Assembly (NCBI RefSeq): GCF_000022145.1 | Contig: NC_011891.1 | Location: 682,001 to 746,000, forward strand | From: Anaeromyxobacter dehalogenans 2CP-1 | Lineage (GTDB): Bacteria; Myxococcota; Myxococcia; Myxococcales; Anaeromyxobacteraceae | Reading direction: 5' to 3' | Length of the DNA stretch: 64,000 nucleotides | The notes under the pieces: model-generated | The model's database searches: none | The model's input: the letters and a program-made list of their open reading frames with translations, nothing else | What the model was told of the DNA's origin: nothing | Part shown: positions 6,065 to 11,229 of the stretch, piece after piece | Layout: every line of letters begins with the position of its first letter | How positions within the stretch are numbered: position 1 is the first letter of the stretch | Translations under genes and position numbers: made by a program

Positions 6065-7114
6065 TCAGCGCCGCGCGCCGTCGAGCGGCGTCGGGTCGAG
6101 CACCAGGCCGAACAGCCACGCGTCGAGCCGCTCCTCGAAGCGGATGTTGAGATAGTCGTACCCGACGTGGCGCCGCACGAAGAGGCCCATCACCATGCCC
6201 TTCGGGTTGCGGGGCAGGATGGCCACCTCCGCCGACAGGTCGCCGAACGGGCCGCGCGCCGCCCCCAGGTGCACGTTGCCCGAGAGCGTGGCCCGCAGGC
6301 TGCTGTCCAGGTGGACCGTGCCGAGCAGCGGGACGCGCCGCGTGCGACCGCGCAGCACCAGCGCCTCCCACTCGGCCAGGTACCGGGCGTTCACCGGCCC
6401 GAAGCGGCGGCGCATGCCCTGCGGCATGCACGCGCCGAGGCCGCAGGCGACCTCGTACTCGAGCCCGCCGCCCACCGTGAGCGCCGAGGTGAACGCGCCG
6501 GGCTGGTCGCCGGTGCGGAGCAGGCGCAGGTACGCGCCGCCGGCGACGAAGTTCGTGGTGAAGCTGCCGTCGTCGAGGTTGAGCGCGGTGGAGGGCGGGT
6601 CGGTGGCCGGGGCGCACTCCCAGTCGCCGTCGCCCGGGCGGCGGACGTGCTCGTCGAGCGAGCACCCGCGCTGCCCGTTGGAGCGGTGGCCGCCGCCCAG
6701 CTCCAGCACCGCCATCCGCATCCAGGGCTGCGGCGCCGAGGGCGCGGGGCGCGCACCGGCCGGATCGAGATGGAAGAGCTGCAGCTTCGCGTGCGGCTCG
6801 TAGGTGGGCGTGCGCACCGGCGCCGAGTCGCCGCGCGACACGCGCAGCGTGGCCAGGAACGAGGCCGAGAGCGCGCTGGCCCACCCGCCCCGCTCGAAGA
6901 CGTCCGGGTCGTCGAGCCCGTTGTGCAGGAGCACGTGGAGGGCCGGCGCCGCCTCGAAGGACTGGCCGCTCGCCGTGGACGCGCCCACGTAGCTGCGCTC
7001 GAGCAGCATGGTGGGCTCGTCGGAGCGGGGCATGTGGGCGACGCAGCCGGACGTACCGGCGAGCAGCGCGGCCGCGACCAGGATGGCGGGCCGGGGGAGG
7101 GGGGGGCGGCGCAT
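6065..7114 (-). CDS. Outer-membrane lipoprotein, beta-barrel-like, with phospholipase-A1-like HxSNG motif
   Basis: 349 residues from the ATG at 7114. An N-terminal signal (AILVAAALLAG) ends in a lipobox-like TSGC with C24 as acylation site. The body has alternating hydrophobic/polar strands typical of an outer-membrane barrel. GGGHRSNGQRG at 141-151 resembles the His-x-Ser-Asn-Gly active-site segment of OMPLA (PldA). The second OMPLA active-site Asn, expected about 14 residues after the His, is not evident. It is either a diverged phospholipase-like protein or an unrelated barrel with a chance match. Two in-frame upstream starts would put the signal peptide internally and are less likely. Confidence 0.6.
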   Translation of the reverse strand: MRRPPLPRPAILVAAALLAGTSGCVAHMPRSDEPTMLLERSYVGASTASGQSFEAAPALHVLLHNGLDDPDVFERGGWASALSASFLATLRVSRGDSAPVRTPTYEPHAKLQLFHLDPAGARPAPSAPQPWMRMAVLELGGGHRSNGQRGCSLDEHVRRPGDGDWECAPATDPPSTALNLDDGSFTTNFVAGGAYLRLLRTGDQPGAFTSALTVGGGLEYEVACGLGACMPQGMRRRFGPVNARYLAEWEALVLRGRTRRVPLLGTVHLDSSLRATLSGNVHLGAARGPFGDLSAEVAILPRNPKGMVMGLFVRRHVGYDYLNIRFEERLDAWLFGLVLDPTPLDGARR

Positions 7115-7369
7115 GCCGGCACAACCTACGACGGGTGCGTGCGGCGGCAAAGCACGAGTTCGGGCCGCGCAGCGGTCCGGCGGCTCATGGCGCCTCCCGT
7201 TCGCGTGGGGCCCGTCGCGAGGCACACGATGGCGTCGCCGAGCCGGGCACACGAGGACCGAGCAGCGCAGGCGTGCCCCTGGGCACGTCGAGCAGCGCAG
7301 GGACGAGTCTGCCCGGCGCAGGCAGCCAGCGTGCGCCGCAGCAGGGCTCCACGTGAATGGGCGGCGCTG

Positions 7370-7852
7370 TCAGTGGGTCCGCTCGCCGCCCTCGCCGGCC
7401 AGCGCGGAGGGGGTGCCGAGCAGCTCCGCCAGCCGCGCCGCGAGCCGCCGCGGGCGCAGCTCGCCGGCGGGCGCGACGAAGATGGTGTCGTCGCCGGCGA
7501 TGGTGCCGAGCACCTCCGGCGGCTGGGCCAGGTCGATGGCGCGCGCGATGGCGGGCGCGCTGCCGGGGTGGGTGCGGATGACCACCATGGACGCGTTCGC
7601 GGCGATGCTGCTCACCAGGCCGCGCAGCGCGGCCAGGCCGCCGTCGGCGCCGTCGGCGCCCAGCTCGTACACCGCGCCCTCCGGCCCGGAGACGCGGCGC
7701 GCGCCCAGCCGGGCGAGGTCGCGCGAGAGCGTCGCCTGGGTGGCGCGGAAGCCGGCCCGCTCCAGCGCGGCGAGCAGCTCCTCCTGCGTCCCGATGCGGC
7801 GGGCGCGGATGATGCGGGCGACGGCGTCGCGGCGGCGGTCGGCGGAGGTCAT
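7370..7852 (-). CDS. argR: Arginine repressor ArgR
   Basis: 160 residues, normal for ArgR/AhrC. The N-terminal winged helix is visible in IGTQEELLAALERAGFRATQ followed by ATLSRDLARLGARRV. The C-terminal oligomerisation and arginine-binding domain shows VVIRTHPGSAPAIARAID and GTIAGDDTIFVAP, which contains the GDDT arginine contact. It is the last gene of the arg operon; its ATG overlaps the argJB stop (ATGA). ArgR hexamers bind palindromic ARG boxes when arginine is present; such a box lies in front of argC, so the operon is probably autoregulated. Confidence 0.93.
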   Translation of the reverse strand: MTSADRRRDAVARIIRARRIGTQEELLAALERAGFRATQATLSRDLARLGARRVSGPEGAVYELGADGADGGLAALRGLVSSIAANASMVVIRTHPGSAPAIARAIDLAQPPEVLGTIAGDDTIFVAPAGELRPRRLAARLAELLGTPSALAGEGGERTH

Positions 7853-9948
7853 TCGGCGGTGAGGAGCGAGCCCACCCCGCGGTCGGTGAAGAGCTCGGCG
7901 ATGACGGTGTGCGGCTGCCGGCCGTCGAGGACGTGCACCCGGCCCACCCCGCCGCGGAGCGCGGTCTGGATGGCCCAGGCCTTCCACTTCATCCCGCCGG
8001 TGATGGCGCCCGCCTGGATGCGGCGGTCGAGGTCGGCGAGCGTGAGCTGGCGGACCAGCTGCCCGTCGGGCGCCGACTCCAGCACCCCGGCGACGTCGGT
8101 CAGGTAGATGAGCTTCGGCGCCCCGAGCGCCACCGCGATGGCCGCGGCGACGTCGTCGGCGTTGATCGACAGGCCGGTGCCGTCGTCGGTGAGGCCGATG
8201 GGCGAGATCACCGGGACGTAGCCGCCGTCCAGGAACATGCGCAGGAACTGGGTGTTCACCTGCACCACCTCGCCCACGTAGCCGAGGTCGCGGCCGGACT
8301 CGTGCACCGCCTTGCGCGCCCGGAGCAGCTGCCCGTCCTTGCCGGACAGGCCCACCGCGCCGGCGCTGCGCGCGTTGAGCAGCGCCACCAGCTCCTGGTT
8401 CACCTTGCCGGTGAGCACCATCTCCACCACCGGCAGGCTCTGCGCGTCGGTGATGCGCATGCCGTCCACGAACTCGCTGCGCTCGCCCAGCTTCTCGAGC
8501 GTGCGGGTGATCTCCGGCGCGCCGCCGTGCACCACCACCGGCTTCAGCCCGACCTTCTTCAGCAGCGTCACGTCCTCGGCGAACGCGGCCTTCAGGCTGT
8601 CCTTCACCATGGCGGCGCCGCCGTACTTGATGACCGCCACCTGCCCGGAGAACGCGGCGATGTACTTCAGCGCCTCGGCGAGCAGGGTCCGCTTGAACGC
8701 CGGGCTGTAGTTGGAGACGCGGTCGTCCTTGCCGACGCCGCCGTCGGGCCGCTGCACGATGAGCGAGGTGTAGTCGGCGTTGATCTTGACGTAGTCGTAG
8801 GAGAGATCGCAGCCCCAGGCCACCGCGCGCGCGGTCCCGTCGGCGAGCTCGACCAGCACGTCGATGCGGCTGTCGCGCATGCGCGTCCGGAGCCCCTCGC
8901 GATCCAGCTCGACCGGCGCGCCGCCCTCGAACACCGTCACGCCCTGCAGCACCACCCGCGCCCGGTACGGGTCGATGGGGTAGTTCATGGCGCCGGCGCG
9001 CGCGCCCACCGTGGCGAGCACGCGGCCCCAGTTCGGATCGGCCCCGAACAGCGCCGCCTTCACCAGCGGCGAGGAGGCGACGGCGCGGGCGCAGTCGCGT
9101 GCCGCCTCGTCCGACGGGGCGCCGGACACCACCACCTCCACCAGCTTGGTGGCGCCCTCGCCGTCGGCCGCCATGGCGCGGGCCATCTCCTCCAGCAGGT
9201 CGGTGAGCGCGGTCTCCAGGCGATCCAGGTCCGGCCCCGGGTCGGAGATGCGCGGGTTGCCGGCCAGCCCGTTCGCGAGCGCGTAGACCGTGTCGTTGGT
9301 GGACATCTCGCCGTCCACCGTCACCATGTGCAGCGTCCGCTCCACCGCCCGTGCCAGCGCGTCCTGCAGCGCGCGCGGCGTCACCGCCGCGTCGGTGACG
9401 AGCAGGCAGATCGTGGTCGCGAGCTGCGGCGCGAGCATGCCCGAGCCCTTGCAGATCGCGGTCACGATGGCGGTCTTCCCGCCCAGCGTCACCTCGCGCG
9501 CGGCCATCTTCGGCCGCGTGTCGGTGGTCATGATCGCCTCGGCGGCGAGATCCGGGTGGTCGCCGAGCTGGTCCACCAGCGCCGGCAGCGCGGTGACCAC
9601 CTTCATGGCGGGCAGCCGCGCGCCGATGACGCCGGTGGACGCGGTGAGCACCGCGCGCTTCTGGAGCCCGAGCGCGTCGGCCACCGCGGCGCGGATCACG
9701 GTGACGTCGTCGAGGCCGGCCGGGCCGGTGAGCGCGTTCGCGTTCCCGGAGTTCACCACGATGGCGCGGATGCCCTCGGCCGGCACGCGCGTGCGCGCGT
9801 CGATGACCGGCGCGGCGGCGGCGCGGTTGATGGTGAACAGGCCGGCCGCGGCGGCCGGGTGGTCGGAGACGACGAGCGCGAGGTCGCGGCGCTGCGGCTT
9901 CAGCCCGCACGCCACCCCGCCGAACCGGAAGCCCTTCGGGATCCTCAC
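7849..9948 (-). CDS. argJ: ArgJ-ArgB fusion: glutamate N-acetyltransferase / acetylglutamate kinase
   Basis: 699 residues in one uninterrupted frame from a GTG two bases after argC. Residues 1-393 are ArgJ, which recycles the acetyl group from acetylornithine to glutamate. KGSG at 167-170 precedes the A177/T178 autocleavage site, whose Thr becomes the nucleophile. ArgJ normally ends near INADYTS (389-395). Instead of stopping, a 20-residue linker leads into ArgB (about 412-699), which phosphorylates N-acetylglutamate. KYGGAAM at 441-447 is its phosphate-binding lysine segment, with VVHGGAPEI and SINADDVAAAIA further on. A GTG at codon 398 exists but has no ribosome site, so a true fusion is favoured. 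Cleavage at T178 would leave ArgB attached to the ArgJ beta chain. Confidence 0.92.
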   Translation of the reverse strand: MRIPKGFRFGGVACGLKPQRRDLALVVSDHPAAAAGLFTINRAAAAPVIDARTRVPAEGIRAIVVNSGNANALTGPAGLDDVTVIRAAVADALGLQKRAVLTASTGVIGARLPAMKVVTALPALVDQLGDHPDLAAEAIMTTDTRPKMAAREVTLGGKTAIVTAICKGSGMLAPQLATTICLLVTDAAVTPRALQDALARAVERTLHMVTVDGEMSTNDTVYALANGLAGNPRISDPGPDLDRLETALTDLLEEMARAMAADGEGATKLVEVVVSGAPSDEAARDCARAVASSPLVKAALFGADPNWGRVLATVGARAGAMNYPIDPYRARVVLQGVTVFEGGAPVELDREGLRTRMRDSRIDVLVELADGTARAVAWGCDLSYDYVKINADYTSLIVQRPDGGVGKDDRVSNYSPAFKRTLLAEALKYIAAFSGQVAVIKYGGAAMVKDSLKAAFAEDVTLLKKVGLKPVVVHGGAPEITRTLEKLGERSEFVDGMRITDAQSLPVVEMVLTGKVNQELVALLNARSAGAVGLSGKDGQLLRARKAVHESGRDLGYVGEVVQVNTQFLRMFLDGGYVPVISPIGLTDDGTGLSINADDVAAAIAVALGAPKLIYLTDVAGVLESAPDGQLVRQLTLADLDRRIQAGAITGGMKWKAWAIQTALRGGVGRVHVLDGRQPHTVIAELFTDRGVGSLLTAE

Positions 9949-9950
9949 CG

Positions 9951-10988
9951 CTAGCCTCCCAGCAGGTCGAGGCCGGCCGTCTCCGGCCAGCCCAGCGCGG
10001 CGTTCATGGACTGCACGGCCTGCCCCGCGGCGCCCTTCACCAGGTTGTCGATGGCGGAGACCGCCACCAGGGCGCCGGCGCGCGCGTCCAGCGCCGCGCC
10101 CACGTGGCAGCGGTTCGTGTGCACCACGTCCTTCACCGCCACCTTGTCGGGCGCGCGCACCGAGACGAACGGCTCGTCGCCGTAGGCCCGCTCCAGCGCC
10201 GCGGCCACGTCGGCCTGCGTCGCGCCGGGGGCGGGGCGCAGGACCGCGGTGGCGAGGATGCCGCGGCGGATGGGCACGAGCACCGGGGAGAAGGAGATGG
10301 GGCCGCACGCGCCGGCGTGGCGCGCCACGGTCTGCTCGATCTCCGGGACGTGCTGGTGGCGGCCCAGCCGGTAGGCGCGCAGGTCGTCGGAGACCTCGAC
10401 GAAGCTGTAGTCCTCGCTCGACTTGCGGCCGGCGCCGGACACGCCGGAGAGGCCGGTCACCGCGATGCCGTCCGGCGAGGCCACGCCGCTGCGCACCAGC
10501 GGCGCGAGCGCCAGCGCGATCGTCGTGGCGTAGCAGCCCGGGTTCGTGACCAGCCGCGCGCCGGCCAGCGCCTCGCGGCCCAGCTCCGGGCAGCCGTAGC
10601 GCGCCTCGGCGAGCAGCTCCGGGGCGGGGTGGGTGAAGCCGTACCAGGCCGGATAGGCGGCGGGGTCGGTGAGCCGGAACGCGCCGGAGAGATCCACCAC
10701 CAGCTTCGCCCCGCGCGCGAGCAGCCGCGGCACGAGGTCGGCCGAGACCTCGGCCGGCGTGGCGAGGAACACCACGTCCGCGTCGGCCGCCTCGCCCTCG
10801 GCGAGCGGCAGGTACGCGAGCGAGGCGGCGGGGCCGGGCAGCGGCAGGCGCGCGCCGGCGCGCTCGCCGCTCCAGCGGTCGGAGTAGATCGCGGTGAGGC
10901 GCGCGTGCGGGTGGCGCGCCAGCAGGCGGGTGAGCTCGAGGCCGGAGTAACCGGACGCGCCGATCACCGCGGCCGAATGGCTATGCAT
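9951..10988 (-). CDS. argC: N-acetyl-gamma-glutamyl-phosphate reductase ArgC
   Basis: 345 residues, the long (type 1) ArgC length. The NADP-binding fold starts at VIGASGYSGLELTRLL (8-23) and the catalytic cysteine is C152 in VTNPGCYATT. GLSGVSGAGRKSS and the C-terminal NLVKGAAGQAVQSMN are family hallmarks. It reduces N-acetyl-glutamyl-phosphate, the product of ArgB, so it acts directly after the second domain of the next gene. It is first in the operon argC-argJB-argR. The start ATG lies only 9 bases after the -10 hexamer and lacks a Shine-Dalgarno sequence, so translation may be leaderless. Confidence 0.95.
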   Translation of the reverse strand: MHSHSAAVIGASGYSGLELTRLLARHPHARLTAIYSDRWSGERAGARLPLPGPAASLAYLPLAEGEAADADVVFLATPAEVSADLVPRLLARGAKLVVDLSGAFRLTDPAAYPAWYGFTHPAPELLAEARYGCPELGREALAGARLVTNPGCYATTIALALAPLVRSGVASPDGIAVTGLSGVSGAGRKSSEDYSFVEVSDDLRAYRLGRHQHVPEIEQTVARHAGACGPISFSPVLVPIRRGILATAVLRPAPGATQADVAAALERAYGDEPFVSVRAPDKVAVKDVVHTNRCHVGAALDARAGALVAVSAIDNLVKGAAGQAVQSMNAALGWPETAGLDLLGG

Positions 10989-11025
10989 GGGGATGCATAA
11001 ATATGCAGTCGGCCCGCGATGTCAA
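10989..11025 (-). promoter_or_regulatory. argC promoter with overlapping ARG-box-like operator
   Basis: Read on the minus strand there is a perfect -35 TTGACA (11025-11020), a 16-base spacer and TATTTA (11003-10998) as -10. The -10 lies inside the palindrome TGCATATTTATGCA (11007-10994), whose arms resemble the TGAAT-ATTCA arms of known ARG boxes. A second ATGCAT at 10984-10989 adds a further half site over the start codon. ArgR bound here would cover the -10, a simple repression layout. Confidence 0.7.
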
Positions 11026-11110: not shown

Positions 11111-11143
11111 AAAAAAAGACCGGCGGGCTTTCGCCCGCCGGTC
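11111..11143 (-). terminator. Intrinsic terminator of tRNA-Leu
   Basis: On the minus strand a perfect hairpin GACCGGCGGGC-TTTC-GCCCGCCGGTC, read here from the plus strand at 11118-11143, is followed by seven T residues (AAAAAAA at 11111-11117 on plus). It begins 3 bases after the tRNA 3' end. Confidence 0.9.
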
Positions 11144-11145
11144 AG

Positions 11146-11229
11146 TGCCCAGGAGAGGATTCGAACCTCCACGGTTTTGAGGCCGCCAGACCCTGAATCT
11201 GGTGCGTCTACCAGTTCCGCCACCTGGGC
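11146..11229 (-). tRNA. tRNA-Leu (anticodon CAG)
   Basis: 84 bases. The acceptor stem GCCCAGG pairs with CCTGGGC and the discriminator is A. The anticodon stem CCAGA/TCTGG encloses the loop TTCAGGG, giving anticodon CAG. A long variable arm typical of tRNA-Leu (GCGGCCTCAAAACCGT region) and the T arm GAGGTTCGAATCCTC are present. The terminal CCA is not encoded. CAG reads CTG, the dominant leucine codon of these GC-rich genes. Confidence 0.95.

Follow-up and report, generated by a model that had tools for sequence, protein, structure and literature searches.

A predicted tandem ARG-box operator spans the promoter and start codon of the argC-argJB-argR operon in Anaeromyxobacter dehalogenans 2CP-1

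What controls an arginine operon whose promoter and first codons are both covered by palindromes with TGCAT arms, and do these arms point to a repressor of altered specificity? To address this question we analyzed a 64,000-nucleotide stretch of A. dehalogenans 2CP-1 (referred to here as the window; positions 682001-746000 of the single 5,029,329-base contig), in which argC, a joined argJ-argB frame and argR follow each other on the minus strand. The palindromes very probably constitute a canonical tandem ARG-box operator, through which arginine-bound ArgR would repress argC-argJB-argR. As predicted from the letters, this is an ordinary ArgR operator of known type; its modest novelty lies in being laid over the start codon, an arrangement that recurs in several families of the order. 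The features discussed below are as follows, in window coordinates:

11145..11229, minus strand: tRNA-Leu (CAG), upstream of argC
11118..11143, minus strand: intrinsic-terminator-like site of tRNA-Leu, between the tRNA gene and the argC promoter
11020..11025, minus strand: TTGACA, putative -35 hexamer of the argC promoter (direct reading and family conservation)
10994..11007, minus strand: ARG box 1, TGCATATTTATGCA, with perfect arms, overlying the -10 region
10998..11003, minus strand: TATTTA, proposed -10, with a 16-base spacer to TTGACA and a 3/6 match to TATAAT
10984..10997, minus strand: overlapping palindrome TGCATCCCCATGCA, joining the right arm of box 1 to the left arm of box 2
10986..10988, minus strand: ATG start codon of argC, lying within ATGCAT, of a probably leaderless mRNA
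10974..10987, minus strand: ARG box 2, TGCATAGCCATTCG, over argC codons 1-5 (Met-His-Ser-His-Ser)
9951..10988, minus strand: argC, N-acetyl-gamma-glutamyl-phosphate reductase (TIGR01850, 368.8 bits, cut-off 233.6)
7849..9957, minus strand: argJ-argB in one frame (ornithine acetyltransferase and acetylglutamate kinase), start approximate
7370..7852, minus strand: argR, arginine repressor, the sole match in the genome with the query used

The argR product matches both the DNA-binding (PF01316, 56.1 bits, cut-off 27) and C-terminal (PF02863, 73.2 bits, cut-off 25) domains of arginine repressors; it aligns over positions 2-146 of the 146 of the NCBIfam equivalog argR_whole (TIGR01529) with 124.8 bits, below the cut-off of 130.45. 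An earlier note on this DNA had named ArgR as the product of the last gene of the operon; argR does belong to the operon and is its last arginine gene, in the order argC-argJB-argR, but a same-strand ORF (6065-7252) comes after it. With argR as the final arginine gene, a feedback loop with autoregulation appears likely. The continuous argJ-argB frame predicts a fused ArgJ-ArgB enzyme, and motifs of both proteins share a frame in 10 of 11 loci checked (the window and 9 of 10 relatives, from f1, f2, f6 and f7), with the argJ motif alone at L347. At the other end of the operon, several relatives likewise show the tRNA-Leu end ahead of argC.

Read directly, the minus strand across the argC promoter and start is gcgtaTTGACAtcgcgggccgacTGCATATTTATGCAtccccATGCATAGCCATTCGGCC, which bears out the earlier description of TTGACA, 16 bases and TATTTA within a palindrome upstream of argC. 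The further claim that this palindrome lies exactly on the -10 stands in part: an ARG box covers the promoter in all 22 readable loci of the family, but we infer its register on the -10 from position, because TATTTA is a poor match and a sigma-70 promoter scan (at least 4/6 per hexamer and T at position 6) found none. The box sits across the promoter of argC, an arginine gene, with TTGACA at a proper distance and a weak -10. Five bases (tcccc) separate box 1 from the argC ATG (10988), and box 2, read within ATGCATAGCCATTCG, is TGCAT-AGCC-ATTCG, with an intact near half and an imperfect far half (ATTCG). The two boxes are palindromes of the TGMAT-N4-ATKCA form, perfect in box 1 and imperfect in box 2, whose centers lie 20 bp apart, within the 20-21 bp of a tandem pair. 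The half site previously seen over the ATG is indeed conserved, and rather than being stray it begins box 2 at the canonical 20-bp center spacing. No Shine-Dalgarno-like word is present in the last 18 bases before the argC ATG in any of the 22 family loci; the argC mRNA is probably leaderless, and the position of TTGACA would probably place the transcript start 0-6 bases before the ATG.

Exact TGCAT-N4-ATGCA occurs in the window at two overlapping places, 10994-11007 and 10984-10997, and a count with at most one mismatch gives 2 against 0.46 expected, with two or more in 7 of 100 shuffles. As this count is in itself only mildly unexpected, the case rests on conservation. The second of these places, TGCATCCCCATGCA, was considered as a third box and rejected: its left arm TGCAT is found in just 6 of 22 family loci and, because that arm is rarely kept while the 20-bp pair spacing persists, we regard the palindrome as a by-product of the tandem arrangement.

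A protein search of 41 genomes yielded 30 argC loci, of which 22 from the family (six genera) and 7 from outside it have a readable 5′ end; L023, which begins inside the gene, was dropped from the argC set, and the 5′ piece of the same genome (L289) has the layout too. Box 1 precedes argC in 22/22 family loci, with perfect arms in 19 and one changed arm base in each of L004, L011 and L015. Its center lies 12.5 bases from the argC ATG (13.5 in two loci), 20 loci have a center spacing of 20 to the box 2 position and the other two one of 21, and a TTGAC core is found 11-13 bases before box 1 in 19 of the 22, the exceptions being TTGCC (L010), TTGCG (L011) and TTGCT (L012, by eye). In 21 of the 22, argC starts with ATGCA. 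Box 2 is less constant in its far half: complete copies of the box are found in L005 and L020 (TGCATGTTCATTCA, TGCATGATCATTCA), and in 11 of the 22 loci (L009-L018 and L021) this half is unrecognizable. Because it is so often lost, only box 1 and the start-codon half-site are firmly conserved, and box 2 may act as a half-site only. Of the 24 family genomes, 22 yielded an ArgR, and box 1 stands at orthologous argC promoters of ArgR-encoding genomes.

Beyond the family, the core GCAT-N4-ATGC is found at all seven readable argC loci (f2, f6, f7 and f9), six of which start with ATGCA and one (L025) with ATGAAT, and argR lies beside argC in all seven genomes. Overall, the protein search detected ArgR in 34 of 41 genomes, and ArgR is present in 6/6 genomes of the chosen named loci. 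Across the order, 80 of the 145 genomes contain the composite pattern GCAT-N4-ATGC-N(5-7)-ATGCA, with 114 matches listed against 7 in a reversed control; as the pattern is partly self-complementary some sites are counted on both strands, and not all of them lie at argC. It falls on the argC start in 20 genomes outside the family (f2, f4, f6, f7 and f9), a set chosen by the pattern itself. These genomes include the seven argC starts (G050, G057, G059, G061, G094, G096 and G135) met among 20 further pattern places, five others of which lie, by eye, between argR and argF (G033, G083, G089, G100 and G120) and the rest at other genes, unrelated or without assigned identity. TGCAT-type boxes between argR and argF were also noted at the f4 loci L292, L297, L298, L299 and L305, the domains for such argR/argF boxes having been checked in L292 alone; f4 ArgR (L292, L297) reads QSTLSR where the host ArgR has QATLSR. 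The argC layout is likewise present in Archangium violaceum (L182). Among 80 argC loci (of at least 583 relatives), 11 have a box scoring at least 10 near the script-chosen start, two of these (L180 and L181) duplicating the records of family genomes G009 and G019; five of the 11 boxes overlap the start codon, and an ArgR-like frame is found in the fetched flank of 7 of the 80.

In the Acidobacteria, three loci (L209, L217 and L229) have a box with TGAAT arms over the start of argC. The TGAAT version of the pattern, searched in 250 genomes, gives 22 matches spread over 19 of them; a same-strand test places 1 of the 22 at the start of argC, and one more (L332) has an argC motif in another frame. 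The start-codon overlay is thus occasional in this phylum. Some Acidobacteria (L316-L337) carry tandem TGAAT-type boxes with about 20-bp spacing, 21 of 22 off the argC start by the same-strand test.

The overlay leaves an imprint on the argC coding sequence. Histidine codons 2 and 4 of family argC genes comprise 31 CAT and 1 CAC, and those from codon 6 on 2 CAT and 152 CAC (n=154; Fisher 8.6e-32 for codons 2/4 versus later, a value that ignores relatedness among the six genera). Codon 2 is CAT in 20 of 22 loci (CAA and GAT in the other two), codon 4 encodes His in 12 of 22 and is CAT in 11 of these 12, and an A/T third base is found at codon 2 in 22/22 loci, at codon 3 in 6/22 and at codon 5 in 4/22. 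In a crude control of 48 GC3-selected window ORFs, which includes doubtful ORFs and leaves argC outside the set, CAT accounts for 35 of the 397 His codons, and for 1 of the few (six) that fall at codons 2-5. The early CAT bias fits selection on DNA rather than on protein, a 5′-end effect being also possible.

On balance, we lean toward a model where, in the host's order, an ARG half-site doubles as the start codon of leaderless argC, such that the operator would dictate the N-terminus of the enzyme (Met-His-x-His at roughly half of the family loci and Met-His or Met-Gln at most of the remainder) together with rare CAT codons, across several families, and where a few Acidobacteria would separately do so with TGAAT arms (Met-Asn-x-x-Ser). 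If true, the rare CAT codons and the first ArgC residues would be explained by DNA binding and not by the enzyme, making this a clean example of a transcription-factor site that constrains coding sequence and of an ATG-containing repressor half-site overlaid on a leaderless mRNA start. In the portions of the ArgR literature compared, we met no description of a start-codon-containing half-site that fixes codons 2 and 4; one may be published.

These same observations can be read differently, with box 1 as the sole functional ArgR site and the ATGCA(T) start as a product of leaderless initiation or of a 5′-end preference for AT, an explanation that we find rather unlikely. Start regions do tend to be AT-richer, half of the family loci have lost the far half of box 2 as described, and in other families codon 2 of argC is mostly CAG, in a set selected for ATGCA. 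Set against this are the A/T third bases, which mark every codon 2 and 11 of 12 His codons 4 but few codons 3 and 5, the complete box 2 of L005 and L020, and the TGAAT-armed box at the same place in the three acidobacterial loci.

In the tandem-operator model, which we favor, an arginine-bound ArgR hexamer would bind both box 1, at the -10 region, and box 2, at the start codon and codons 2-5, on one helix face and 20 bp apart. Bound ArgR would then sterically exclude RNA polymerase from the probably leaderless argC promoter and shut off argC-argJB-argR, argR included, resulting in autoregulation. Such an arrangement would amount to a compact feedback loop, with one operator and one operon ending in its own repressor.

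Could the palindromes belong to another regulator that recognizes TGCAT-type sites? Genome-wide, exact TGCAT-N4-ATGCA is found only at argC (two overlapping) and at two sites beside a MarR-family gene, and one-mismatch occurrences (32 places against 39 in the reversed control) show no excess, against which the exact sites are conspicuous. The MarR-family gene (L046, G000:C1 at about 4744372-4745311) is flanked by the two exact palindromes and a near one, of the TTGCATG-N2-CATGCAA type, which are likely MarR operators. At position 2927 of L139 (G024), a TATGCACAGATATGCATATG palindrome follows TTGACG just before the ATGCAA start of an ArsR-like gene (by eye), and the layout is therefore not unique to ArgR. 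Both cases lend something to the idea that a MarR- or ArsR-family protein binds at argC, which we nevertheless consider very improbable: the MarR-side sites at 4744 kb have G/C-rich centers whereas that of the argC box is A/T, and the argC box has the 20-bp tandem layout and accompanies argR (as argC-argJB-argR or argR/argF) across families.

The choice of TGCAT arms had been taken in the earlier note as a hint of an altered recognition sequence. Consensus ARG-box arms in E. coli are TGAAT, as are those of the acidobacterial relatives, which could be seen as favoring a new recognition code. The stretch TQATLSRDL of the host ArgR, which we take to be the recognition helix, is identical in 3ere (the best solved relative by sequence, presumably M. 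tuberculosis ArgR) and nearly so in 1f9n (presumably B. subtilis AhrC). As far as the consulted excerpts describe it, the E. coli arrangement is similar in having two palindromic boxes that overlap the promoter and different in that these are 18-bp boxes, 3 bp apart. A closer parallel is found in the parts of PMC5839063 available to us, where S. coelicolor ARG boxes have TGCAT arms (argH TGCATGAGTATGCA, Table 1; also argH TCATGCATGAGTATGCAGAA, argG CTTTGCATGGTCATGCGTAA and, as a near relative, argC CGATGCACGTTTATGCAATG) and sit in fragments that band-shift assays show to bind ArgR. According to the same source, argH and argG carry adjacent 20-nt boxes, the second with an intact near half and a decayed far half; the Anaeromyxobacter operator thus resembles those of S. 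coelicolor argC, argG and argH in its TGCAT-type arms and its unseparated 20-nt boxes with a center spacing of 20, and those of argH and argG in pairing one strong box with a half-decayed one. Some S. coelicolor boxes also coincide with or span a start codon (argG box 2 is listed at -2), although here the ATG itself lies inside the near half-site of box 2 (ATGCAT). For B. subtilis AhrC, the sections of PMC3293853 consulted report that the argC coding region contains an additional ARG box and that AhrC binds the S. coelicolor argC promoter; there the main operator comprises two boxes at a distance of 11 bp, the coding box forming an operator of its own, whereas in the present operon the coding box adjoins box 1 as its tandem partner. 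A changed ArgR specificity is thus highly doubtful and the proposal of altered recognition unsupported, because TGCAT arms are already published (PMC5839063), the TQATLSRDL stretch is kept relative to 3ere, and AhrC is reported on the S. coelicolor promoter (PMC3293853). Among the papers listed, no title or opening of an abstract deals with ArgR sites in Anaeromyxobacter or Myxococcus; one of these papers, PMC545781, cites Makarova et al. 2001.

We finally consider how far the tandem operator extends to other arginine genes. The expectation that the motif would recur at other arg promoters holds in relatives, at argC and between argR and argF, but not in this genome. While argC sites score 18.0-31.7, a matrix scan of fetched loci gave 0.1 for argG, 3.7 for argF, 8.3 for the argD-argF region (8.8 under a slightly different matrix), -2.0 for carA and -2.2 for a second argC-like gene, and argH reached at best 1.0 using a slightly different matrix; no box is found at argG, argH, argD-argF, carA or the second argC-like gene, in a survey that left transport, catabolism and N-acetylglutamate synthase genes outside its scope. 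Since the other arginine genes examined lack a box, the ArgR regulon of this genome may be a single operon, whereas a wide regulon is reported for Streptomyces ArgR in the sources seen in part. Upstream of argG (L082, G000) lies TGGAAC-N17-TACTTG, after TGC and resembling an extended -10 promoter without an ARG box, and a loose form of this promoter-like stretch is found in 12 of 20 argG loci.
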